Assembly (NCBI RefSeq): GCF_000174435.1
Contig: NZ_ACJN02000002.1
Span: forward strand, 1,059,490-1,123,489
Reading direction: 5' to 3'
Source of the DNA: Desulfonatronospira thiodismutans ASO3-1
GTDB taxonomy: Bacteria; Desulfobacterota; Desulfovibrionia; Desulfovibrionales; Desulfonatronovibrionaceae
DNA length: 64,000 bases
Shown here: piece by piece, positions 28,810-40,600 of the stretch
Layout: every line of letters starts with the position of its first letter
How positions within the stretch are numbered: position 1 is the stretch's first letter
Made by a program: the position numbers and the translations under genes
Notes under the pieces: generated by a model
Database searches by the model: none
Told to the model about the DNA's origin: nothing
Seen by the model: only the letters and a program-made list of their open reading frames with translations

Positions 28810-28887
28810 TGGTCGGGATGGCAGGATTCGAACCTGCGGCCTCAGCGTCCCGAACGCTGCGCTCTAGCCAGACTGAGCCACATCCCG
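28810..28887 (-). tRNA. tRNA-Pro (anticodon CGG)
   Basis: The minus strand folds as a cloverleaf: acceptor stem CGGGATG/CATCCCG, D arm GGCTCAGTCTGGCTAGAGC, anticodon stem CAGCG/CGCTG with loop TTCGGGA giving anticodon CGG, T arm with GGTTCGAATCC. The discriminator is A and the CCA end is encoded in the gene (28810-28812). A good promoter lies 12 bases upstream. Confidence 0.95.
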
Positions 28888-28928: not shown

Positions 28929-29030
28929 GACCCTGTACTCTGAAAACCAGGCCCGGGTTTTTCGGTGTCTGTTTTGGTCAATCGCAGCCAGCTTGTTTGA
29001 AGTCAGGCAATGAGTTATCAAGGAAGAACT

Positions 29031-30539
29031 ATGCAAAAATATGATCAGGGGAAAAAAGCTACGGTCCTGGTGGTGGACGATGAAGAAAGCCTGCGCGAGA
29101 TTTGCCAGGATGCCCTGAAGGATGAAGGATACGAGGTATTGCAGGCTGAAGACGGCGTGCAGGCAAAGGAGCAGATTGCCAGGCATCAGGATATTGACCT
29201 GATTATTTCCGATCTTCGAATGCCCCGCCTGGGAGGCCTGGAGCTTCTGCAGTATACAGCCGAGCACAATCTGGATATAGATTTTCTGGTTATGACCGGT
29301 TTTGCCAGTATTGAAACCGCTGTGGAGTGCATCAAGACCGGGGCAGCGGATTATCTGCCCAAGCCTTTCAATATCAGCCATCTGCTGGTCAAAGTGGACA
29401 AGGTCATCAGAAACAGGCAGTCCCGCCAGGAGCGCAACCGCCTGAGCAATATCGTCAGGATGCTAAATGTCAGCAATGCCCTGAACGCCCAGCTGGACCT
29501 GAAATCCATCTGCTACGAATTTGTATCCCAGGTCCAGAAGAATTTCCGGCCCGACAGCGTGGTCCTTTTTCTAATCAAGGAGGAAAAGAATTCTCTGGTC
29601 AAATATGTGGTCAGGGGCAGAACATTAAGGGAGAATCCGAAACTTTTCTCTGAACTCAAAGGCCTTGGGGAAAAATCTGTCCGGGAGAGCAGGTCCTTCC
29701 TTCTGGACAAGGGCAATGCCAGGGAATATCTCAAGGCTGATCCTGGAAAGTTTCAGCATTCCATCTTGATCTCCCCCCTTTATTCCCAGCACAACAGGGT
29801 TGGGGCCGTGGTTCTCCTGCGCGAGGAAGACAACCTGTTCACCAATGAAGACCTCCAGCTTCTGGGAGTTTTTGCCGCCCATGCGGCTACAGCCATGCAA
29901 AACGCCAGAATGTACGGCAAGATGCGGGATAAAAACCTGGACATCATCAGGTCCTACGCCAAGGCGGTGGAAGCCAAGGATTATTATACAAAGGGGCATT
30001 CCGAGCGGGTGGCGGTTTATGCCATGAAGCTCGGAAGCAGGCTCAAGCTTGACTCCAAGGAACTGGAAGACCTGTACACAGCAGGGGTGCTGCACGATAT
30101 TGGGAAAATAGGAATCCCTGATCATATCCTGAACAAACCATCCCAGCTGACAGATGAAGAGTTCAGGGTCATGCAGAGCCATCCCGGCATTGCCAGGGAT
30201 ATCCTGGCCCAGCTCTGGTCCTTAAACGACATTCTGCCCGTGGTATATCATCATCACGAACGTGTGGATGGCGGAGGTTATCCAGAAAGTTTGAGCAACG
30301 GCCAGATTCCCTTTCTGGCCAAACTTATAAGCGTTGTGGATGCCTTTGAAGCCATGACTTCTGACCGGGCCTACCGCGACGCCCTGACCTGGGAGAAGGC
30401 CAGAGATATCCTGGAACAGGGAAGCGGAACCCAGTGGGAAGATGAGCTGGTGCAGGAGTGGATCAAGCTGGTCCAGGAGACAGGCCTGGAGAATATCCAG
30501 AAGGATATTCAATCAAGTCCCGCAGCCTTCAAGGGGTAA
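29031..30539 (+). CDS. Response regulator with GAF-like and HD-GYP domains
   Basis: A 502-residue probable cyclic-di-GMP phosphodiesterase under phosphorelay control. The receiver (residues 10-125) has the phospho-acceptor aspartate at residue 61 (SDLRMP). A GAF-like region (about 150-300) follows. The C-terminal HD-GYP domain has GHSERV, LHDIGKIGIPDHIL, and HHHERVDGGGYP with the GYP triplet intact. I chose ATG 29031 because AAGGAAG precedes it; ATG 29010 would add seven residues. It opens the chemosensory operon, 90 bases before cheB, suggesting that c-di-GMP breakdown is one output of the pathway. Confidence 0.9.
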   Translation: MQKYDQGKKATVLVVDDEESLREICQDALKDEGYEVLQAEDGVQAKEQIARHQDIDLIISDLRMPRLGGLELLQYTAEHNLDIDFLVMTGFASIETAVECIKTGAADYLPKPFNISHLLVKVDKVIRNRQSRQERNRLSNIVRMLNVSNALNAQLDLKSICYEFVSQVQKNFRPDSVVLFLIKEEKNSLVKYVVRGRTLRENPKLFSELKGLGEKSVRESRSFLLDKGNAREYLKADPGKFQHSILISPLYSQHNRVGAVVLLREEDNLFTNEDLQLLGVFAAHAATAMQNARMYGKMRDKNLDIIRSYAKAVEAKDYYTKGHSERVAVYAMKLGSRLKLDSKELEDLYTAGVLHDIGKIGIPDHILNKPSQLTDEEFRVMQSHPGIARDILAQLWSLNDILPVVYHHHERVDGGGYPESLSNGQIPFLAKLISVVDAFEAMTSDRAYRDALTWEKARDILEQGSGTQWEDELVQEWIKLVQETGLENIQKDIQSSPAAFKG

Positions 30540-30629
30540 ATGCCGGATGACCAGTGCCCGGTGCGGATCTTTTTTCCGGAGCCATGTGGCCCGGACAATC
30601 GAGTACAGCGAGAAACCAAGGTGGCAAAA

Positions 30630-31691
30630 GTGATCAGAGTCGTAGTAGTTGACGATTCGGCCTTCATGCGCAAGGCAATCAGCACCATGCTTCAGAAGGA
30701 CCCCGAGATCGAAGTGGCGGGGGTGGCCAGAAACGGCCAGGAAGGCTTAGATATGGTGCGCAAGCTGAATCCGGATGTAGTTACTCTGGATATTGAGATG
30801 CCGGTCATGGACGGGCTTACCGCCCTGAAACACATCATGATGGAAATGCCCAGGCCGGTGATTATGGTCAGCTCACTGACCACCGAAGGCGGAGAGGCCA
30901 CCCTGAAGGCCATGGAATACGGGGCGGTGGACTTTATCCCCAAGCAGCTCTCCAAGGTCAGCCTGGACATAGTAAAGATCGAGAAGACCCTGCAGTCCAA
31001 GGTCAAGACAGTGGTTCAGAAAAAGGGGAGTCAGGCCGGAGCCGTGGCCAGGAGCAAACCAAGAACAGCTAAGGAGGTTTCCAGAACCATTCAGGACAGG
31101 CCCAGGGGAAAAGTGGTCCGGGACATAGTGGTTATAGGGGTTTCCACGGGAGGACCTCCGGCGGTGCAGAAGGTGCTCTGCGAACTCCCCCCGGATTTCC
31201 CCGCCGGGATCCTCATCGCCCAGCATATGCCGGGTGCATTCACGGGTCCCTTTGCCAAACGTCTGAACGACGCTTCTTCCCTCTGGGTAAAGGAGGCTGA
31301 AGACGGGGATGTCTTGTCCCCGGGGCGGGTCTTTATAGCCCCCGGTGGCAGGCACCTGATTCTAAACCCCAGGGCTTCAAGGATCGAACTGTCCGTAACA
31401 GCCAAGCCCGAGGATGTTATATACAAACCCTCGGTCAATGTGCTTTTCAGTTCTGCGGCCAGCGGCCCGGGGCACAGGACGGTTGGGGTTGTCATGACCG
31501 GAATGGGCAGCGACGGCCTGCTCGGGGCCAGGGACCTCAAGGCGAAAAAGGGTGTGCTCCTGGCTCAGAGCGAAGAGACCTGTGTGGTATACGGCATGCC
31601 CCGGGCGGTCATAGAAGAGGGGCTGGCCGACCAGGTGCTAAGCCTTGACGACATGGCCCAGGCCATTACAAACCACCTGTACGAGACGTGA
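30630..31691 (+). CDS. cheB: Chemotaxis methylesterase CheB
   Basis: CheB removes methyl groups from chemoreceptor glutamates when phosphorylated. From GTG 30630 the product has 353 residues: receiver with D54 (LDIEMPVMDG), a linker rich in basic residues, and the esterase domain with catalytic S172 (GVSTGGP), H199 (AQHMP) and D295 (GMGSDG). AAGGTGG lies 6 bases before this GTG; a GTG at 30621 and an ATG at 30540 directly after the upstream stop are alternatives, but the residues encoded before 30621 are not CheB-like. No receptor gene is nearby, so it must act on receptors encoded elsewhere. Confidence 0.93.
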   Translation: MIRVVVVDDSAFMRKAISTMLQKDPEIEVAGVARNGQEGLDMVRKLNPDVVTLDIEMPVMDGLTALKHIMMEMPRPVIMVSSLTTEGGEATLKAMEYGAVDFIPKQLSKVSLDIVKIEKTLQSKVKTVVQKKGSQAGAVARSKPRTAKEVSRTIQDRPRGKVVRDIVVIGVSTGGPPAVQKVLCELPPDFPAGILIAQHMPGAFTGPFAKRLNDASSLWVKEAEDGDVLSPGRVFIAPGGRHLILNPRASRIELSVTAKPEDVIYKPSVNVLFSSAASGPGHRTVGVVMTGMGSDGLLGARDLKAKKGVLLAQSEETCVVYGMPRAVIEEGLADQVLSLDDMAQAITNHLYET

Positions 31692-31847
31692 CTTTTTTCC
31701 AGCCACAGGGTCGGATGGCGGGAGGCATTGGCTGACTTGCCTTCAGGCAACTGCCGGGCATGTTTTGTATCTGCTTTTATCTTGAAAAACCGTCAAAAGC
31801 AGAAGCATGCAGAAGCTGCCTTTTGCAGCAGATAAACAGGAGCAAAA

Positions 31848-33785
31848 ATGCATCAGGACCAACAGGAGATACTAAGGCTCTTGCAGAGCGAAAACCAGGC
31901 GGACCAGCGTGAAGGGGCCTTTCTGGCCCGGGATATAAAACTGGCGGCGGCGGTTCCCCACCTGGTGGAACTTTTGCAAAGCCGAAGCATCGGGGTGCAG
32001 GAGGCTTCGGACATGGCCCTGCGCAAGATCGGCGGTGCCGGAAGCGTAAACGCTCTCATCCCCCTTCTGTCCAGCGATTCCCCCCCGGTGCGCAATCTGG
32101 CCATGGATATCCTGAGGCATATCGGACACCAGGACATGGACGCCCTGCTGGGACTGCTCAAGAACGAAGACCCGGACCTGCGGATTTTTGCCGCGGACAT
32201 CCTGGGCTCCACCAGATCCTACCTGGCTGTGAGCCCCCTGTGCGAGCTTCTTCTCAAGGACCCGGAGGTCAATGTCCGCTACCAGGCTGCTGTGAGCCTG
32301 GGGGATCTGGGCAGATCCGGGGCCACGGAGTGTCTGAACCGGGCCTTCATGGATGAGGAATGGGTGCAGTATGCAGTGGTGGAAGCCCTGTCCAAGCTGC
32401 GGGACGAGTCTTCGGTCAAGGTGCTTATTCAGGCCCTGGGCAACAGTTCGGAACTGGTGTGCTCCATGATAGTCGACGCCCTGGGGGAGATGGGCAACAT
32501 TAAATCCGTGCCCATGCTGCTCAAGCGCATGGAGGATTCTCCGGCGGCCCTGCGCAACAAGATAGTCAAGGCAGTGATCAAGATCCTGGGCGGCAAGGCC
32601 CTGACATTCCTGAGCAACAAGGAAAAGGAAAAACTGCATGAATATCTGCTGGCGGCTGTAAACGACGATGAGACTGATATACAGGACGCGGCGATACTGG
32701 GGCTTGGCTACGTGGGCCAGGAAAGGGCGACCCGCAAGATTCTGGAGCGCGCGACCCGGATGGATCCGGAGCATGAAGAGGACAGGCTGAACAGAGCCCA
32801 GCAGTCCCTGGTATCCATAGGTTGCAATGAGTCCCTGGTGGAGGGCCTTTTCTCGGATGACGAAACCCTGTCCTTACTGGCGGTAAAGGCTCTGGGCAGC
32901 ATCGGCGGCAATGAGGCGGTGACAAACCTCATGAGCGCTTTTCCCCGGAAACACCGTGATCTGCAAAGGGAGATCGCCTGGGTGCTTCATGACTGTGCCG
33001 GCTGGGAGGCCAGGGATTTTTTTGTGCAGATTCTGCGGGAACATCAGGACGGGGATGTGCTCAAGGCGGGACTGGGCTTTATCGGAAACAGACTGCAGGA
33101 CGAAGACAGTGTTTTTGTTCTCATGGGGTTTCTGGAGCACCCCTGGGACGACGTCAAGGAGACCGCCCTGGAAGCAGTTTTGAGTATCGGCGGGGACAAG
33201 GTCCTGGAGCACTTTCAGAATATGCTCACCAGCCGGGAGATCATTCACAGGGTCATGGCGGTTTACGCCATGGGCAAGCTGGGCGCTGCCAGCAGCCTTG
33301 AGAGCCTTTCCAGGGCCCTGGGTGACGAGGCTTACGAGGTCAGAAAAATCGCCCTGGAGGCCCTGGGCCATATCTGTCCCGAAGACAGAAATGTTCTGCC
33401 CCTGGTGGTCCAGGCCCTTCAGGATGAAAACAGGGAAGTCAGACGGGGGGTTGTGGAGCTTCTGGATGAATGCCCTCACCCGGATACCCATTTTTACCTG
33501 CTCAAGGCCCTGGAAGATCCCGATGAATGGGTCAGAGTCAGGGTGATAGAGGCCCTGGGCAGAAACCGGGTCAAGGAGCACATCCCGGAGATGCTGTCCA
33601 TCTGGGAGAGAAGTTCCCAGCTGGTGAAGATAAAGATCGTGGAGGCCCTGGGCAGTATTGGTGGGCAGACGGCATTCAGGTCTCTTCTGGACATTCTCGA
33701 CTATGGCGATCCGGAAATCCAGGATGCAGCGGAAAGAGCGCTGGATAAACTTCAGGAACAAGGTACGGAGCAGGGGCAAGAATGA
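31848..33785 (+). CDS. HEAT-repeat scaffold protein in chemosensory operon
   Basis: A 645-residue soluble protein built almost entirely of HEAT or PBS-lyase-type repeats of about 31 residues, for example the recurring pattern VxxLIxALxDxxxxVRxxAxxALGxIG seen from residue 20 to the C-terminus. There is no enzyme motif, signal peptide or membrane segment. Such solenoids bind protein partners. It overlaps cheR by 4 bases and follows cheB, so it is part of the operon and may organise the CheB, CheR and receptor complex. That role is inference. AGGAG lies about 6 bases before the ATG. Confidence 0.85.
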   Translation: MHQDQQEILRLLQSENQADQREGAFLARDIKLAAAVPHLVELLQSRSIGVQEASDMALRKIGGAGSVNALIPLLSSDSPPVRNLAMDILRHIGHQDMDALLGLLKNEDPDLRIFAADILGSTRSYLAVSPLCELLLKDPEVNVRYQAAVSLGDLGRSGATECLNRAFMDEEWVQYAVVEALSKLRDESSVKVLIQALGNSSELVCSMIVDALGEMGNIKSVPMLLKRMEDSPAALRNKIVKAVIKILGGKALTFLSNKEKEKLHEYLLAAVNDDETDIQDAAILGLGYVGQERATRKILERATRMDPEHEEDRLNRAQQSLVSIGCNESLVEGLFSDDETLSLLAVKALGSIGGNEAVTNLMSAFPRKHRDLQREIAWVLHDCAGWEARDFFVQILREHQDGDVLKAGLGFIGNRLQDEDSVFVLMGFLEHPWDDVKETALEAVLSIGGDKVLEHFQNMLTSREIIHRVMAVYAMGKLGAASSLESLSRALGDEAYEVRKIALEALGHICPEDRNVLPLVVQALQDENREVRRGVVELLDECPHPDTHFYLLKALEDPDEWVRVRVIEALGRNRVKEHIPEMLSIWERSSQLVKIKIVEALGSIGGQTAFRSLLDILDYGDPEIQDAAERALDKLQEQGTEQGQE

Positions 33786-34663
33786 ATTCGCCATTTTCCC
33801 AAAGCATAACCTTCAAGAAAGAACTGAAGATCGATGACCAGGAATTCAAGCAGCTGCGCGACTTTATATATGAAAAAAGCGGCATCTATATCGGGGACAA
33901 CAGGAAATACCTTCTGGAAAACAGGCTGGGCAACAGGCTCAAGGCCCACAACCTCAAGAGCTTTAAAGAGTATGCCTATTTTTTGCGCTATGATTCCCAG
34001 CGCAATGAGGAGCTGGCCAAGCTTTTCGAGGTGATAACCACCAATGAGACCAGCTTTTTCCGCAATCCGCCCCAGATAAAGATTTTTCAGGACCAGATCC
34101 TCAAGGATATTATAAAGGCCAAAAAGGCCAGAGGTGAAAAAAAGCTGACCATTTGGTCCGCCGGATGCTCCACAGGAGAGGAGCCGTATACCCTGTCCAT
34201 AGTGCTGCATGAGGTCCTGCAGCACGAGCTCGGCTCCTGGAAGCCAAAAATCATCGCCAACGACCTGTCCAATGCGGTTCTCTCGGCGGCCAGGCGGGGC
34301 ATATACACGCAGTATGCCCTGAGAACCACCCCGCCGGAAATCATCAAAAGGTATTTTGTTGAAGAATCCGAGGGCAAGTTCAGAGTCCAGGACAGGGTCA
34401 AGGACCTGGTGCAGTTCGGCCAGATCAACCTGAGCGACCGTTTTCAGCTCAAAAAGGTGGAGCGCTCAGACGTGATTTTCTGCCGCAATGTGATTATATA
34501 TTTTGACGACGAAATGAAAAAGAACGTCATAAATTCATTTTATGACAACCTGTTGCCGGGGGGATACCTTTTTATCGGCCATTCCGAGTCTTTGCACAAC
34601 ATCAGCCGGGCCTTCAAACCCCTGCATTATCCGGGGTCCATTGTGTACCTCAAGGAAAAATAA
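33782..34663 (+). CDS. cheR: Chemotaxis methyltransferase CheR
   Basis: Methylates glutamates on chemoreceptors using SAM. The 293-residue product has the N-terminal helical domain and the SAM-binding fold with WSAGCSTGEEPYTLSIVLHE near residue 125, NDLSNAVLSAARRGIY, and the FCRNVIIYFDD motif near residue 237. No C-terminal TPR or pentapeptide-binding extension is present. Its ATG overlaps the stop of the HEAT gene (ATGA), which implies coupled translation. Confidence 0.95.
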   Translation: MNSPFSQSITFKKELKIDDQEFKQLRDFIYEKSGIYIGDNRKYLLENRLGNRLKAHNLKSFKEYAYFLRYDSQRNEELAKLFEVITTNETSFFRNPPQIKIFQDQILKDIIKAKKARGEKKLTIWSAGCSTGEEPYTLSIVLHEVLQHELGSWKPKIIANDLSNAVLSAARRGIYTQYALRTTPPEIIKRYFVEESEGKFRVQDRVKDLVQFGQINLSDRFQLKKVERSDVIFCRNVIIYFDDEMKKNVINSFYDNLLPGGYLFIGHSESLHNISRAFKPLHYPGSIVYLKEK

Positions 34664-34692
34664 ACCGAAGTTTGTGATCCGGGAGACTGCTT

Positions 34693-35088
34693 ATGCAGAA
34701 GCAAGAAGAGCGCAGGCAGTATGTGCGCATTCCAAAGAACTACAGGGTGGAGCTTCAACCTCTGGAATTTCCCCTGGCCGCCCAGAAAAAGATCAGGGTG
34801 GAGTCAGCGGATATAAGTTCCGGGGGACTCAGGCTCAGCTGCGATGAAAAGTTCGGTGAAGGCCAGACAGTCCAGGTCCGGGTATATATTTCCGGGCTGA
34901 ACAAACATCACCCCGGTTTTTTCAAGGTGTTTGAAAGCGATGCCGGGCAGTATCTTCAGGCGGTGTCAGAGGTGAGCTGGGTCCGGGAGAAGGTTGCTTT
35001 TGAGCTCTACGAGATGGGGCTTAAGTTCGTGGATGTCTACGAGGACGACTGGCAGGCCCTGAAGACCATGCTGGACAGGATGCAGTAA
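34693..35088 (+). CDS. PilZ domain protein
   Basis: A 131-residue stand-alone PilZ protein. The c-di-GMP-binding residues are present: RxxxR as R8-QYV-R12, and DxSxxG as D40-ISSG-G45. It is 30 bases after cheR and just before the ParA gene, so it is part of the chemosensory operon and a likely c-di-GMP-responsive element in it, complementing the HD-GYP regulator at the operon start. GGGAGA precedes the ATG. Confidence 0.86.
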   Translation: MQKQEERRQYVRIPKNYRVELQPLEFPLAAQKKIRVESADISSGGLRLSCDEKFGEGQTVQVRVYISGLNKHHPGFFKVFESDAGQYLQAVSEVSWVREKVAFELYEMGLKFVDVYEDDWQALKTMLDRMQ

Positions 35089-35130
35089 AGGCTCAAGCCG
35101 GGTTTGCACCCCGGTGCAGGAGGGGTTTCA

Positions 35131-35907
35131 TTGCCTGGAGAGGTGCTTGCAATAGCCAACCAGAAAGGCGGGGTGGGCAAGACGACTACAGCGCTGAATC
35201 TGGGTTCGTCTCTGGCCGGGCTCAAGAAAAAGGTCCTGGTCATGGATCTTGATCCCCATGCCTGCGCCTCCATTCACCTGGCCTTTTACCCGGAACAGGT
35301 GACTCATTCCGCCCTTGACATTTTTAAGGCATACCCGGATTTTGAAGGCACGTACAATACCTGTGTGTATAAAAACAGGCAGGGCCTTCTTTTCGATTTT
35401 GTCCCCAGCAGCATTCAGCTCTCGGAACTGGACGCGGATCTGCGGGACGTTTCCGGAAAAGGGCTGATTCTTAAAAAATGGATTGACGGACTACGAAATG
35501 ATTATGATGTCATAATCATAGACTGCCCTCCGCAGATGGGCATTATCCTGGTGAATTCACTGGTGGCCGCCGACCTGGTGATTATTCCCACGCAGACCGA
35601 TTTTCTCGCCCTGCACGGGTTCAAGCTCATTTTCGATACCATGCGGCTGTTAAACAAAGCCCTGAAAAGGCCGATAAAATATAAAGTGCTGGCTACAATG
35701 TACGACAGAAGGGCCAGTGCCTGCCGCCGGGTTCTAAATACCCTGCACAGGAAAATGGGGCCGGAAAGACTTTTCGAGACAGTGATAAACACTGATACCA
35801 AGTTCAGGGAAGCAAGCGCCAGGGGCAGGGTCATACATGACTATGCCCCGAGGTCCAGGGGCGCTTTGGAGTATTACAAGCTGGCCCGGGAGATACTTAA
35901 AAAATGA
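35131..35907 (+). CDS. ParA/Soj-family ATPase of chemosensory operon
   Basis: A 258-residue MinD/ParA-type ATPase with the deviant Walker A motif KGGVGKTT at residues 12-19, DLDPHACAS and IIDCPPQMG (Walker B). In Vibrio and Rhodobacter, ParA homologues encoded in che operons (ParC, PpfA) place chemosensory arrays in the cell; the same role is inferred here. The start is a TTG at 35131 preceded by AGGAGGGG at an 8-base distance, a strong site that outweighs an upstream TTG at 35104. It overlaps cheW by 4 bases. No ParB is adjacent, as in other che-linked ParA loci. Confidence 0.88.
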   Translation: MPGEVLAIANQKGGVGKTTTALNLGSSLAGLKKKVLVMDLDPHACASIHLAFYPEQVTHSALDIFKAYPDFEGTYNTCVYKNRQGLLFDFVPSSIQLSELDADLRDVSGKGLILKKWIDGLRNDYDVIIIDCPPQMGIILVNSLVAADLVIIPTQTDFLALHGFKLIFDTMRLLNKALKRPIKYKVLATMYDRRASACRRVLNTLHRKMGPERLFETVINTDTKFREASARGRVIHDYAPRSRGALEYYKLAREILKK

Positions 35908-36629
35908 AAACTCCAGAACAGTACTTTCAGGAGCAGGTGTTTGACTCTGATGCCCTCCTGGATCAAAAAGAGGTTTCGGACCAGGAACAGGCGTTTATCC
36001 AGAAATACCTCGGAGAACTCGCCGAAAATCTTCCTGACGTGGGTCCCCAGGCCAGGCAGACTCATGCTTTTCCTCCCCCGGCAAAAGAAGAAAGCGTGGA
36101 TGCAGGAGATGATGAGCAGACGTTTGAGGGGGGCCGGGAGGAAAAATACGGGGCTGCAGGCCTCTCAGAGGACCTGCGCCGGCGTCAGGAAGTGCAGTTA
36201 GTGAGTTTTTTCATGGGGCAACAGGAGTATGCCCTGCCCATAGATGCGGTCCAGGAGGTGATCAAGTATATCCAGCCCTCCAGGCTGCCCACGGCCCCGG
36301 CGCATGTGGAAGGAGTGATAAACCTGCGCCGCAAGATCACCCCGGTGGTGGATCTGCCGGGTTTTATGCGTATAAAAAAGTCTGACAGAGATGAACACAG
36401 GTTCATGGTGGTCTGCAGGCACTCAGGGTTCCAGGTTGCTCTTTTGGTGGAGCGTATTGCTACTATGTACCGCATATCCGACAGTGATATCGAGTGGAAC
36501 GTGGACAGTGCCCTGGGTGGCGGTTCAGGTGTGGTGGAGGCTTTGATCAAGAATAGAGAGAGGATTATCTCCGTACTGAGCATTGAAAAGATAGTCCAGC
36601 ATCTGCTGGGGGACCATAAAGACCTATAA
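35904..36629 (+). CDS. cheW: CheW-like coupling protein with N-terminal extension
   Basis: CheW couples CheA to receptors. The 241-residue product is longer than the usual 150-160: residues 1-93 are a variable acidic extension rich in Q, E and P, and the CheW domain follows (VSFFMGQQEYALPIDAVQEV, then VEGVINLRRKITPVVDLP). The extension could bind the neighbouring ParA ATPase, as ParA-binding extensions are known on partner proteins in other che systems; this is speculation. Its ATG overlaps the ParA stop. Confidence 0.92.
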   Translation: MKTPEQYFQEQVFDSDALLDQKEVSDQEQAFIQKYLGELAENLPDVGPQARQTHAFPPPAKEESVDAGDDEQTFEGGREEKYGAAGLSEDLRRRQEVQLVSFFMGQQEYALPIDAVQEVIKYIQPSRLPTAPAHVEGVINLRRKITPVVDLPGFMRIKKSDRDEHRFMVVCRHSGFQVALLVERIATMYRISDSDIEWNVDSALGGGSGVVEALIKNRERIISVLSIEKIVQHLLGDHKDL

Positions 36630-36649
36630 ACCATGGAGCAGCACCGAAA

Positions 36650-37018
36650 ATGGCCAAACATATTCTCATGGTGGATGATTCCAAGACAGTGCGAAACCTC
36701 ATTGCCTTTATCGTCAAGAAGGAGGGGTTTCATGTGACCACTGCCGAAGACGGCCTGGACGCCCTGGAAAAGCTTTATGCCGCCTCAAACGTTGACCTGA
36801 TAATAACGGACATCAACATGCCCCGCATGGACGGTTTTACCTTCGTGCAGAACCTGAGAGAGCAGGAGGCATTCCGGGATGTGCCCGTAATCATTTTGTC
36901 CACGGAAGGGCAGGAAAAGGATAAGGAGCAGGGTCTCAGCCTGGGGGCCAATCTGTACATGGTCAAGCCGGCCCAGCCGGAATGGCTTTTGAAAAATGTA
37001 AAGATGCTTCTGGGGTAA
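36650..37018 (+). CDS. cheY: Single-domain response regulator CheY
   Basis: A 122-residue stand-alone receiver that would carry the CheA signal to the flagellar motor or another target. The acidic pocket D9-D10, phospho-acceptor D54 (TDINMPRMDGF), a conserved threonine/serine in ILSTEG and the lysine in VKPA are all present. It lies between cheW and cheA, as in many che operons. No cheZ, cheC or cheX phosphatase gene is in the cluster. Confidence 0.94.
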   Translation: MAKHILMVDDSKTVRNLIAFIVKKEGFHVTTAEDGLDALEKLYAASNVDLIITDINMPRMDGFTFVQNLREQEAFRDVPVIILSTEGQEKDKEQGLSLGANLYMVKPAQPEWLLKNVKMLLG

Positions 37019-37075
37019 TTTAAAGGTGTCGTTTTCAAGGCGCAGGCATGTAAGAAACCGGGCGCGGAGTAATAT

Positions 37076-39853
37076 ATGAGCCAAGACTTTTTCGACCCGG
37101 AAGTGTATTCCGACTTTGTAGTGGAAGCCAGGGAGCACCTGGAGACCATCGAGCCCAAGCTTTTGGAGCTGGAGAATAATCCCGGCAACCTGAGTCTTCT
37201 AAACGATATCTTCCGGCCCATGCATTCCCTCAAGGGGGCTTCAGGCTTTTTAGGTCTAAAGGACATGAATGCCCTGGCCCACAAGGGCGAAAATATCCTG
37301 GACGAACTGAGGCAGGGCCGCATCCAGGCCAACTCCTCCATTATGGACCTGATCCTGGAAGCCACCGATGCCTTGCGCACCATGGTGGACAACCTGGAAA
37401 GCATGGGGCACGAGGGCAGCCTGGAAGTAGGGCACATAATCGAGCACATTGACGAAATTTTAAAAAACAAGGATGAGCAGGCCTCATCAGGTGCTCCGGC
37501 TCAAGAAGTTCAAAAGGAAGAGCAGGACTTTTCCCATCCTGCAGCAGAACAGAACTATCTCCTGAACATGGTCAGCCTGGATCATTTGAGCGACTTCATA
37601 GAAGAGGCCCAGGAAAACCTGACGGCCATAAACTCCTTGCTCCTGGAAATGGAGAAAGGTGAAGGCAGCAGCCAGGACCGGATAAACGACCTGTTCCGCA
37701 ATTTTCACAATCTCAAAGGCAACAGCGGCATTATAGGGTATATAGAACTCAATGCACTGGCCCATGAAGTGGAGACATTCTTAAACACCATCCGCTCCGG
37801 AGAACAGGTCCTGGACCCGGAGGCTGTGGACGTCCTCCTGGAGACGGTTGATGTCCTGGAATCTCTGCTTGGCAATATCGACAGGGAGACTGGAGAAGTG
37901 CAGCCGGAAAGCATATCCGGCATTACCTCGCGCATAAAGGAATTGAAAAAGCGTTTCCAGGTGCACCAGGACGAAGAAGACAAAGCAAAGGACAACGGGG
38001 CCCGGGAAGAGGCAGAAAACATTTTTGCTCAAGCCCCGGCGGATAATGAGGTTGCAGGGCAACAACAGGGAGACAATGATCCGGAGGTGGATCCCCAAGA
38101 CCTGCAGATTTTCAGGCAGACTGTGGACCAGCAGTTTTCCAATATGAAACACGCCCTGGACAAATTAGAAAAGGAGGGCACGGACAAGGAACTGGTTGAC
38201 GGTCTCTACAGGTCGCTGGTGACGGTGCAGAATTCCACCGGGTACATGGGATTTGAAGAACTCAAGAATTATGCTTCCAATACCGCCAACCTTGTGGACC
38301 AGGGCCGGAAGACGGATACAGACTTTTCCCTGATGCACGGTATCCTCAAGCAGGAAGTGGACATACTGGAATCCATGATCAACAGGCATCTCTCAGGGCT
38401 GTCTTCAACGGTCCAGGACCTTCCTGCACAGCCCTCCCCGGAGCCTGACAGGGAAACCTCTGCAGAAAAGCCGTCGGAGGCTTCCCGGGTCAGCTCCGAT
38501 CCACAGGAAGAAGCAGAGCCCTTTGCACCAGCAATGGATATCCCGGAGCAGCAGCAAGCCCAGGCAGCCAGTCAGGCCGGGGAATCTGCAGAGCCATCAG
38601 GAGCCGGCAAAAGCGCAGACCAGGGAGCGGGCAGTGAGCCCCAGGCCAAAAGCCAGGGAAGCACTACATCCACCATCAGGGTGGACCACGGCAAGCTGGA
38701 TGAGCTTATGAACCTCATCGGGGAGCTGATTATAAACCGCAACAGGTTCGCAATGCTCTCCAGGTCCCTGGAAGAGGGGCAGGATGTAATGGAGGTGGCC
38801 CAGCAGCTTAATGAGACCACCAACTCCATGGCCCGCATTTCCGACGATCTGCAGGTGACCATAATGAATGTGCGCATGGTGCCCGTACGTTCGGTGTTTA
38901 CCAAGTTTCCCCGGTTAGTGCGTGATCTGAGCCGCAAGAACAACAAGAACATTCAGCTCATCACTGAAGGTGAGGAAACCGAGCTGGACAAAAGCGTTGT
39001 GGAGCTCATAGGCGATCCCCTGGTGCATCTGATCCGCAATGCAGTGGATCATGGCCTGGAACTGCCGCAAGAGCGAAAAGACCGGGGCAAGGAGGAAAAA
39101 GGGACAGTATGGCTGCGGGCAGCACATAAAGGCAACTCCGTGGTTATCGAGATAGAGGATGACGGCAAGGGGATAGATCCGGAAAAGATGAAAGCCAAGG
39201 CAGTGGAAAAAGGGATCATAGACCGGGAGGAAGCCAGGAACATGGAGGAAGATCAGGCGGTGGATCTTATTTTCGCACCGGGCTTTTCCACGGCCGAGAC
39301 CATTACTGATGTATCCGGGCGCGGTGTGGGCATGGATGTGGTCAAAAACAATATCAAGAGCCTGAAAGGCAATATATCCGTGACCTCTGCTGTGGGCCAG
39401 GGGACCAGGTTCTCCATAGCCCTGCCTCTGACCCTGGCCATAATAGACGCCCTTATGGTCAAGGTGAACGGGCAGGTCTACGCCATTCCCTTAGACGCGG
39501 TATCCGAGACCACCAAGATCCAAGCCGGCAGGCTAAATGAGATCAACAACCGCAAGGTAATAACCCTGCGCGGGGAGGTTCTGGGTATTTCCGATCTGGC
39601 GGAGCTGCTGGAACTGCCTGTGGACCAGGCAGACAGGGATGAGCTGCCCTTAGTCATAATCAAGGTCGGAGACCGCAGGATGGGCTTCATTGTGGAAGAC
39701 CTGCTGGAAAGGCAGGAGGTGGTCATCAAGTCCCTGGGAGAATACCTGGGGGACCAGCCAGGAATTTCAGGAGCTACTATCATGGGCGATGGAAGTGTGG
39801 TACTCATCCTTGATCCCAACGAAATCTACAGGATCGCCACCAGCAGGAGTTGA
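37076..39853 (+). CDS. cheA: Chemotaxis histidine kinase CheA with three HPt modules
   Basis: A 925-residue CheA. HPt 1 has H50 (MHSLKG) and HPt 2 has H211 (FHNLKG). A third HPt-like bundle (residues 340-440) aligns well, but its equivalent position is V382 in YRSLVTVQNSTGYMG, so it cannot be phosphorylated there. A Pro, Ala, Glu and Gln-rich linker of about 90 residues follows, without a recognisable P2 domain. Then come the dimerisation helices (ELMNLIGELIINRNRF), the ATPase (HLIRNAVDHGLE, DDGKGIDPEKM, GRGVGMDVVK) and a CheW-like C-terminus. It lies 57 bases after cheY and is followed by a TPR gene. Confidence 0.95.
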   Translation: MSQDFFDPEVYSDFVVEAREHLETIEPKLLELENNPGNLSLLNDIFRPMHSLKGASGFLGLKDMNALAHKGENILDELRQGRIQANSSIMDLILEATDALRTMVDNLESMGHEGSLEVGHIIEHIDEILKNKDEQASSGAPAQEVQKEEQDFSHPAAEQNYLLNMVSLDHLSDFIEEAQENLTAINSLLLEMEKGEGSSQDRINDLFRNFHNLKGNSGIIGYIELNALAHEVETFLNTIRSGEQVLDPEAVDVLLETVDVLESLLGNIDRETGEVQPESISGITSRIKELKKRFQVHQDEEDKAKDNGAREEAENIFAQAPADNEVAGQQQGDNDPEVDPQDLQIFRQTVDQQFSNMKHALDKLEKEGTDKELVDGLYRSLVTVQNSTGYMGFEELKNYASNTANLVDQGRKTDTDFSLMHGILKQEVDILESMINRHLSGLSSTVQDLPAQPSPEPDRETSAEKPSEASRVSSDPQEEAEPFAPAMDIPEQQQAQAASQAGESAEPSGAGKSADQGAGSEPQAKSQGSTTSTIRVDHGKLDELMNLIGELIINRNRFAMLSRSLEEGQDVMEVAQQLNETTNSMARISDDLQVTIMNVRMVPVRSVFTKFPRLVRDLSRKNNKNIQLITEGEETELDKSVVELIGDPLVHLIRNAVDHGLELPQERKDRGKEEKGTVWLRAAHKGNSVVIEIEDDGKGIDPEKMKAKAVEKGIIDREEARNMEEDQAVDLIFAPGFSTAETITDVSGRGVGMDVVKNNIKSLKGNISVTSAVGQGTRFSIALPLTLAIIDALMVKVNGQVYAIPLDAVSETTKIQAGRLNEINNRKVITLRGEVLGISDLAELLELPVDQADRDELPLVIIKVGDRRMGFIVEDLLERQEVVIKSLGEYLGDQPGISGATIMGDGSVVLILDPNEIYRIATSRS

Positions 39854-39859
39854 CCCCAT

Positions 39860-40405
39860 ATGAGCGCCGGCAGCAGAAAGGAGTCCGGTTCAGATAAAAA
39901 CCGCAAAATGTCCCGCAGAGATCTGTTCAAGGGGGTATTCAATAAGGTCCGGGGCAACAAAGCCCCGGAAAGGGAATCAAGCGGGCTGGATCCGGACATG
40001 GCTTACGCGGACAGGCTGATCAGGCAGGGAGAGTACGAAAAGGCCGCCCACCTGTACTCCAGAAGGCTCAAGAAAGAACCAAGGCACCTGGAGGCCATGC
40101 GCAGCATGGGGTACTGCCATTTCATGCAGGGGGATTATTCCAGGGCCAGAGAGGCCTGGGAAAAGCTTCTGGGATTTCGCCCCAGGGACAACTTCGCCCT
40201 TCTCTACACAGGCCTTGCCTGCGCCAGGCAGGGGGACGTCCATGAAGCCCTGGAAAACTGGAAGCTATACTATGATATCCGCAAACCCGCGGTGCAAAGA
40301 GCGATAAATCTCTTTCTGGCCAGGCAGGAGAGAGGTGAGGAGCTGGACGCCCGGGAAATGGCGGACTCGGTTCAGGAGGCCCTGGAAAAGCAGAAAGATG
40401 TCTGA
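39860..40405 (+). CDS. TPR-repeat protein at end of chemosensory operon
   Basis: A 181-residue soluble protein with a basic N-terminus (RKESGSDKNRKMSRRDLFK) that could be read as a twin-arginine-like stretch but lacks a hydrophobic core, so I treat it as cytoplasmic. Residues 52-130 hold about two and a half TPR units (YADRLIRQGEYEKAAHLYSR, AMRSMGYCHFMQGDYSRARE). It starts 6 bases after the cheA stop and is probably the last gene of the operon; a tandem repeat and a foldback follow directly. Its partner is unknown. Confidence 0.82.
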   Translation: MSAGSRKESGSDKNRKMSRRDLFKGVFNKVRGNKAPERESSGLDPDMAYADRLIRQGEYEKAAHLYSRRLKKEPRHLEAMRSMGYCHFMQGDYSRAREAWEKLLGFRPRDNFALLYTGLACARQGDVHEALENWKLYYDIRKPAVQRAINLFLARQERGEELDAREMADSVQEALEKQKDV

Positions 40406-40411
40406 AATGGG

Positions 40412-40495
40412 CAGAAGCCAGAAGTCAGAGATCAGAAGTCAGAAGTCAGAAGTCAGAGGTCAGAAGGCAGATGTCAGAAGGCAGAGGTCAGGGGG
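40412..40495. repeat. Tandem heptamer repeat (CAGAAGT), 12 units
   Basis: Twelve 7-base units with consensus CAGAAGT run without a gap from 40412; units vary at positions 5-7 (for example CAGAGGT, CAGAAGG, CAGATGT). The array begins 6 bases after the stop codon of the TPR gene and ends beside a foldback. It is outside any coding region. Confidence 0.88.
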
Positions 40496-40498
40496 CAG

Positions 40499-40600
40499 CC
40501 AGCACTCAACTTGAGGCAGTGATTTTGCCCTCCGTAGGCGTAGGCTCCTCTGAGCCGGAGGCCGGGCCCGGCTGGACCGGCAGCTCAAGTTGAGTGCTGG
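40499..40600. repeat. 102 bp foldback between convergent genes
   Basis: A 17 bp perfect inverted repeat (CCAGCACTCAACTTGAG at 40499-40515, complement at 40584-40600) encloses a GC-rich centre that can fold again. The right arm and flank read on the minus strand as AGCCATCCAGCACTCA, identical over 16 bases to 24135-24150 in the other foldback element. Its place between convergent genes suits a bidirectional terminator, but no T tract follows. Confidence 0.78.

Follow-up and report, generated by a model that had tools for sequence, protein, structure and literature searches.

A cheA3-type chemotaxis operon of Desulfonatronospira thiodismutans with a candidate CheW-derived adaptor for its ParA ATPase and a HEAT-repeat protein encoded near CheY and CheR

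We analyzed a 64,000-nucleotide stretch of the Desulfonatronospira thiodismutans ASO3-1 genome (contig NZ_ACJN02000002.1, positions 1,059,490 to 1,123,489; hereafter the window), in which ten co-directional genes on the + strand form a chemotaxis operon at window positions 29010-40405. They encode, in this order, a REC-GAF-HD-GYP response regulator, CheB, a HEAT-repeat protein, CheR, a PilZ protein, a ParA-type ATPase, a CheW with an N-terminal extension, CheY, CheA and a small TPR protein (Table 1). Open reading frames and Pfam matches bear out the domains and the common direction that a first-pass annotation of the sequence had assigned to all ten. Intergenic distances range from -4 to +57 bp, except for CheB and HEAT, which lie 156 bp apart. 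The HD-GYP gene has two possible starts, at 29010 or 29031, and CheB may begin at 30540 or possibly at a later GTG around 30621-30630. For ParA, the TTG at 35131, preceded by GGAGG, appears the more likely start than the TTG at 35104.

Table 1. Genes of the chemotaxis operon in window coordinates, with the matches and motifs on which each assignment rests
Product	Coordinates	Strand	Evidence
REC-GAF-HD-GYP response regulator, predicted cyclic di-GMP phosphodiesterase	29010..30539	+	Pfam HD_5 1e-37, Response_reg, GAF
CheB methylesterase	30540..31691	+	Pfam CheB_methylest 3e-62; NCBIfam CheB above cut-off
HEAT-repeat alpha-solenoid, unnamed family, predicted CheY/CheR-associated chemotaxis protein	31848..33785	+	Pfam HEAT_2 x6
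CheR methyltransferase	33782..34663	+	Pfam CheR 4e-58; 4-bp overlap with HEAT
Single-domain PilZ, predicted cyclic di-GMP-dependent CheR regulator	34693..35088	+	Pfam PilZ 1e-11; RxxxR, (D/N)xSxxG
ParA-type ATPase, predicted positioning role	35104..35907	+	Pfam AAA_31 1e-46; Walker motifs
Extended CheW, proposed ParP-like adaptor	35904..36629	+	Pfam CheW, residues 98-233
CheY	36650..37018	+	Pfam Response_reg
CheA kinase, two intact Hpt and one degenerate Hpt-like region	37076..39853	+	Pfam Hpt, H-kinase_dim, HATPase_c, CheW
Small TPR protein, N-terminal SRRDLF(K/R)G motif	39860..40405	+	Pfam TPR

We compared the operon with the loci of 68 relatives (69 loci in total, a sample found through the HEAT gene with no chemotaxis context preset) and surveyed orthologues in 120 genomes of the Desulfovibrionales. 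A HEAT orthologue, nearly always full-length and single-copy, is present in 92 of these genomes. The core order CheB-HEAT-CheR-(PilZ)-ParA-CheW-CheY-CheA is kept in nearly all of the relatives' loci, and genes of a pair, where both are present, are adjacent in 60/60 (CheB-HEAT), 67/68 (HEAT-CheR), 23/23 (CheR-PilZ), 52/53 (ParA-CheW), 54/54 (CheW-CheY) and 68/68 cases (CheY-CheA). CheY, CheA, CheR and HEAT occur in all 69 loci; CheB was not found within the examined stretch at a few of them, and ParA together with a CheW bearing the N-terminal motif described below is missing from 15. Of the 69 loci, 9 encode HD-GYP, 24 PilZ and 4 TPR, and TPR is restricted to Desulfonatronospira and a single sister genus. 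Of the extra genes, HEAT alone is found throughout and ParA often; PilZ and HD-GYP are optional, and TPR is recent. The neighborhood comparison, called for in the first-pass annotation, thus finds HEAT and ParA traveling with the che genes and the extra genes not scattered, so that the outcome which that annotation had named as refuting a functional link did not occur. Residues needed for catalysis or phosphorylation in CheY, CheB, CheR, ParA, HD-GYP and PilZ are preserved among the orthologues, with the CheY phosphorylation residues being invariant in 69 sequences and the ParA Walker motifs in 54. Two CheA Hpt domains retain their histidine, and a third Hpt-like region has glutamine in its place in most orthologues. 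An apparent HEAT-CheR fusion at two loci (L146 and L150), suggested by overlaps, was dropped because the open reading frames lie in different frames.

The locus represents the cheA3-type operon for flagellar chemotaxis in the Desulfovibrionales, known from Desulfovibrio vulgaris. The first reading of the sequence had proposed this likeness, and the published locus supports it. In D. vulgaris, cheA3 (DVU2072) is the last gene of an operon that contains a parA homologue, the ParA family protein DVU2075, and whose conservation within Desulfovibrio has been noted (PMC3944678, PMC11784015). The two genes are three locus numbers apart, which fits the ParA-CheW-CheY-CheA order seen here; cheA3 closes the D. 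vulgaris operon, whereas a TPR gene follows cheA in the window. Without cheA3, D. vulgaris is still flagellated and can swim in liquid, yet the mutant shows no directed motility toward sulfate or lactate (PMC3944678).

Of the 92 genomes with a HEAT gene, 77 have the ParA orthologue, and all 28 genomes without HEAT lack it (77/120 overall); the ParA scores are bimodal (E <=6e-60 versus >=2e-49). At ParA-bearing loci, the N-terminal extension of the neighboring CheW contains two sequence blocks, KT[PL]EEYF and then AExAFLxKYLG, which in the window read KTPEQYF (residues 2-8) and EQAFIQKYLG (at about residues 27-37). This motif, defined on the same sequences in which it was counted, is found at 54/54 ParA-bearing and 0/15 ParA-less loci, with no discordant case. 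The joint presence and absence of ParA and motif-bearing CheW is explained by about 5 changes, both traits changing together, when losses are counted on the HEAT gene tree rather than a species tree. At locus L068, ParA has been lost and the CheW domain retained, and here the extension lacks the first block and keeps the second in only partly recognizable form. The extended CheW is also the fastest-diverging gene of the operon, with a median identity to the window protein of 36% versus 47-73% for the other core genes, and its motif is nearly invariant despite the rapid divergence of the rest of the protein. All 14 genomes in which we looked, among them the ParA-less genomes covered by that search, encode a much stronger stand-alone CheW at another site (E about 1e-40 to 1e-46), and the extended CheW therefore looks dispensable. 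Because the motif tracks ParA, because of the pattern at L068, and because an ordinary CheW is present elsewhere while this one diverges fast, the extended protein looks like a second, fast-evolving CheW serving as a ParP-type adaptor for ParA rather than as a coupling protein. The idea of a ParA-positioned chemosensory core, put forward in the first-pass annotation, is hence supported, and the CheW extension tracking ParA had escaped it. A text search of the open-licence literature returned no paper describing a ParA-linked CheW motif or the HEAT family in Desulfovibrio.

We compared this arrangement to other ParA proteins associated with chemotaxis. In Vibrio, ParP binds to ParC through its N terminus and joins the array through its C-terminal CheW-like domain (PMC5706961). 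Both systems have a ParA-like gene in the che operon followed directly by a gene for a protein with an N-terminal extension and a C-terminal CheW-like domain, ParP in Vibrio and the putative adaptor here, and in both an ordinary CheW exists besides it. Our scan for ParA relatives recovered gammaproteobacterial loci of the order CheY-...-CheA-CheB-ParC-ParP-CheW, among them those of Photobacterium, Moritella, Shewanella and Pseudomonas, where we named ParC and ParP from gene position and from resemblance to the published system. The ordinary CheW gene lies next door in these gammaproteobacteria, whereas it is found elsewhere in the genome here, and the CheW domain of the putative adaptor matches PF01584 strongly, whereas ParP gives a weak match or none to the CheW model of the operon. 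ParP N termini carry a block such as ALDDYFDALL, resembling TLEEYF, and ParA shares with ParC, not with Soj, the residues DPH, QT(D/E)FLA and DTxFR(E/D)AS, which may be ancestral. A ParA protein of a chemosensory array is likewise known from Rhodobacter sphaeroides; this protein, PpfA, acts together with cytoplasmically clustered receptors, whereas no receptor gene is part of the operon here. ParA-type genes have been reported in the che operons of 37% of the species surveyed (PMC2829493).

Several results weigh against an adaptor of the ParP type. The likeness between the N-terminal motifs of the extended CheW and ParP is weak (hhalign P 0.033), and we keep it as a hint. ParA forms a separate clade in its tree, where a grouping with ParC has support 0 and a grouping with Soj is not rejected (approximately unbiased test, p-AU 0.661); the CheW domain also forms its own clade in the free tree, where grouping with ParP is not rejected (p-AU 0.712). 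For the joint change of ParA and motif-bearing CheW, a sign test on independent pairs yields p 0.125, with few events. The two genes adjoin with a 4-bp overlap, such that a single deletion could take both, and only L068 separates them. By analogy, ParA and the extended CheW would work like ParC and ParP, be it by common origin or by separate rise, between which the trees do not decide.

The gene overlap, and a free tree in which the CheW domain does not cluster with ParP, would also fit a protein that is the operon's own coupling CheW with a lineage-specific tail, lost jointly with ParA through adjacency, the partner of ParA then being HEAT, TPR or a receptor. We regard this explanation as unlikely. 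It does not account well for L068, where the first motif went with ParA and the CheW domain stayed, nor for a near-invariant motif in a fast-diverging protein, and a better-conserved CheW is available elsewhere in the genomes searched. The other candidate partners fare no better: HEAT stays in all ParA-less loci, and TPR is missing from nearly all ParA-bearing ones.

The HEAT protein is the second component whose distribution is informative. Homologues outside the order share 22-32% identity with it, most of them over nearly the full length, and are spread over numerous families of the phylum. We examined 29 of 32, and all are encoded within 5 kb of che genes, 28/29 with cheY within 1.8 kb and 25/29 with cheR nearby, and many sit in operons of the type FlhA-FlhF-FlhG-FliA-...-HEAT-CheR-CheY-...-CheA-CheB-MotA. 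The first-pass annotation had listed HEAT as an extra gene; it is indeed conserved with the che genes, but its link to CheR and CheY extends far beyond the order, which had been missed. The N-terminal half of the protein is the most conserved. NCBIfam holds no fitting model for it, and the matches to NblB/CpcE and to designed alphaRep proteins are repeat-driven and fall below curated cut-offs, so that we rejected them as homologues. A single-sequence AlphaFold2 model is all-helical, its mean predicted local distance difference test score of 68.7 being too weak for placing a binding site. From its genomic context, CheY is the most likely partner, with CheR as the alternative; gene adjacency by itself fits either protein alike, which weighs against singling out CheY. 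HEAT proteins tied to CheY are known: Cpc7 of Myxococcus interacts with CheY7, as cited in PMC11514114, and the haloarchaeal OE2401F is required for flagellar motor switching (PMC2666748). The family described here shares with them the HEAT-only architecture and a gene near cheY, but it is about 645 residues long, lies beside cheR and cheY, and is likened to them by gene context and predicted role. A survey of Geobacter chemotaxis makes no mention of HEAT proteins. Four loci in another family of the phylum (L126, L127, L131 and L133) have a cluster of HD-GYP, kinase, HEAT, CheY and REC-TPR genes with no CheR or CheA nearby, which may represent a HEAT-CheY system apart from chemotaxis.

The operon encodes two proteins predicted to act on or respond to cyclic di-GMP. 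The HD and GYP motifs are kept in every orthologue covering them, and with HHExxDGxGYP and a phosphorylatable receiver aspartate the HD-GYP regulator has the features of an active phosphodiesterase, as which it is predicted to function. The PilZ protein retains its RxxxR and (D/N)xSxxG motifs and directly follows CheR wherever it could be scored, including at locus L065, where ParA and CheW are lost. In Pseudomonas aeruginosa, the single-domain PilZ protein MapZ inhibits CheR1 with cyclic di-GMP (PMC6370697). Because PilZ follows CheR in all 23 scored loci, we suggest that it is a MapZ-like brake on CheR; the likeness is one of functional analogy, as no sequence match to PilZ structures in the Protein Data Bank is detectable.

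The first-pass annotation had suggested an array whose position or output is tuned by cyclic di-GMP. As a defining property of the operon, this theme does not agree with the occurrence of HD-GYP, PilZ and TPR given above: the core persists without them. The cyclic di-GMP parts are optional modules, that is, accessories to which sequence assigns plausible roles. It appears improbable to us that the principal output of CheA is phosphorylation of HD-GYP, with PilZ sensing the outcome. Such a system would make sense of the intact receiver and HD-GYP motif in a regulator encoded directly before CheB in 8/8 scored loci, of the two intact Hpt domains in CheA, and of an HD-GYP regulator with the same architecture (~29% identical) that is encoded next to HEAT and CheY in a different family of the phylum, and there is a precedent in P. 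aeruginosa, where a phosphodiesterase localizes with CheA and depends on CheA phosphorylation (PMC3861689). The putative output and its reader are nevertheless present in a minority of loci, whereas CheY, CheA, CheR and HEAT are in all, and the orthologous cheA3 governs flagellar directed motility (PMC3944678).

The operon itself contains no receptor, CheZ or CheD gene, as had been stated in the first-pass annotation. For the genome this holds for CheZ, which was not found, whereas there are 14 matches to the signaling domain of methyl-accepting chemotaxis proteins (MCPs), one CheD and several CheX-type phosphatases. Since receptors are encoded in trans, the phrase "without a receptor" carries little meaning, and we rejected receptor absence as a special trait of the operon. 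Three additional CheA genes lie elsewhere in the genome. Seven MCPs (L108-L114) share a common signaling-domain type, other than the types of the MCPs beside two of the other cheA clusters, and adjoin no cheA, and by elimination we infer that they are candidate receptors for the operon's CheA. We also observed two similar large CheA genes (L011, G000:C3:91320, and L012, G000:C4:122405), with open frames of 1128 and 1112 residues, respectively, which are likely duplicates; MCP genes are nearby only for L012. A ParA relative (L239, G000:C4:243420-244199) contains two in-frame TAA codons and is probably a decayed gene. Control of pili, surface polysaccharide or some other non-flagellar process is very improbable as the role of the operon. 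In its favor one could cite the unlinked receptors and a UDP-glucose dehydrogenase gene that lies upstream here and in close kin. Against it, an oppositely oriented tRNA-Pro gene (28810-28887) separates the dehydrogenase gene from the operon, HEAT-CheR-CheY relatives occur in FlhA-FlhF-FlhG-FliA operons, and the D. vulgaris cheA3 mutant is flagellate and swimming with its directed motility lost (PMC3944678).

A search for FliA (sigma-28) promoters upstream of CheB and HD-GYP gave a signal in the window not above that of shuffled sequences, and a site with at least 10/12 matches occurs in only 3/60 relatives. A small GC-rich hairpin, CCGGG...CCCGG, is located in the PilZ-ParA gap at 35099-35115, just 5' of the ParA ribosome-binding site. 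Immediately 3' of the last gene, a tandem-like short repeat of AGAAGTCAG/AGAGGTCAG units covers 40410-40497. It is followed, still shortly 3' of the TPR gene, by a perfect 16-bp inverted repeat, CAGCACTCAACTTGAG / CTCAAGTTGAGTGCTG, at 40500-40515 and 40584-40599, whose arms are ~70 bp apart; a 20-base arm of the inverted repeat downstream of TPR has one exact copy in the genome and two with 2-3 mismatches. The N-terminal motif of the TPR protein is seen in its homologues as well and resembles a twin-arginine motif, with no hydrophobic stretch.

Starting from the gene content, the conserved order, the co-occurrence of ParA with motif-bearing CheW and the linkage of HEAT to CheY and CheR, all of which are observed, we propose a model whose physical interactions and functions are all inferred. 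Receptors and an ordinary CheW, both encoded elsewhere, would form arrays with the operon's CheA; CheY would convey the signal to the flagellar motor, and CheB and CheR would adapt the receptors. ParA would position or partition the arrays, to which it would be linked by the extended CheW in a manner modeled on ParP linking arrays to ParC in Vibrio: the C-terminal CheW domain would reside in the array, and the N-terminal KT[PL]EEYF peptide would bind ParA. The HEAT solenoid most likely would bind CheY (or CheR) and tune output or adaptation, PilZ most likely would brake CheR at high cyclic di-GMP, and the HD-GYP regulator may lower cyclic di-GMP once phosphorylated by CheA. As a whole, a cheA3-type operon that serves as the principal one for flagellar chemotaxis, with ParA positioning via the extended CheW and with tuning by HEAT, PilZ and HD-GYP seems to us the probable explanation. 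A bolder proposal, which we advance tentatively, is that a CheW has been turned into a ParP-like ParA adaptor via the short KT[PL]EEYF peptide and that HEAT is a core flagellar chemotaxis protein throughout the phylum, acting on CheY or CheR. If this is true, the HEAT solenoid would be a testable chemotaxis component in sulfate reducers and their relatives, in which the pathway downstream of CheY is little understood and, in the genome studied here, CheZ was not found. The link between array and ParA would be reduced to a seven-residue peptide open to mutation, and the operon would represent a second, perhaps independent way of attaching chemosensory arrays to a ParA positioning system.

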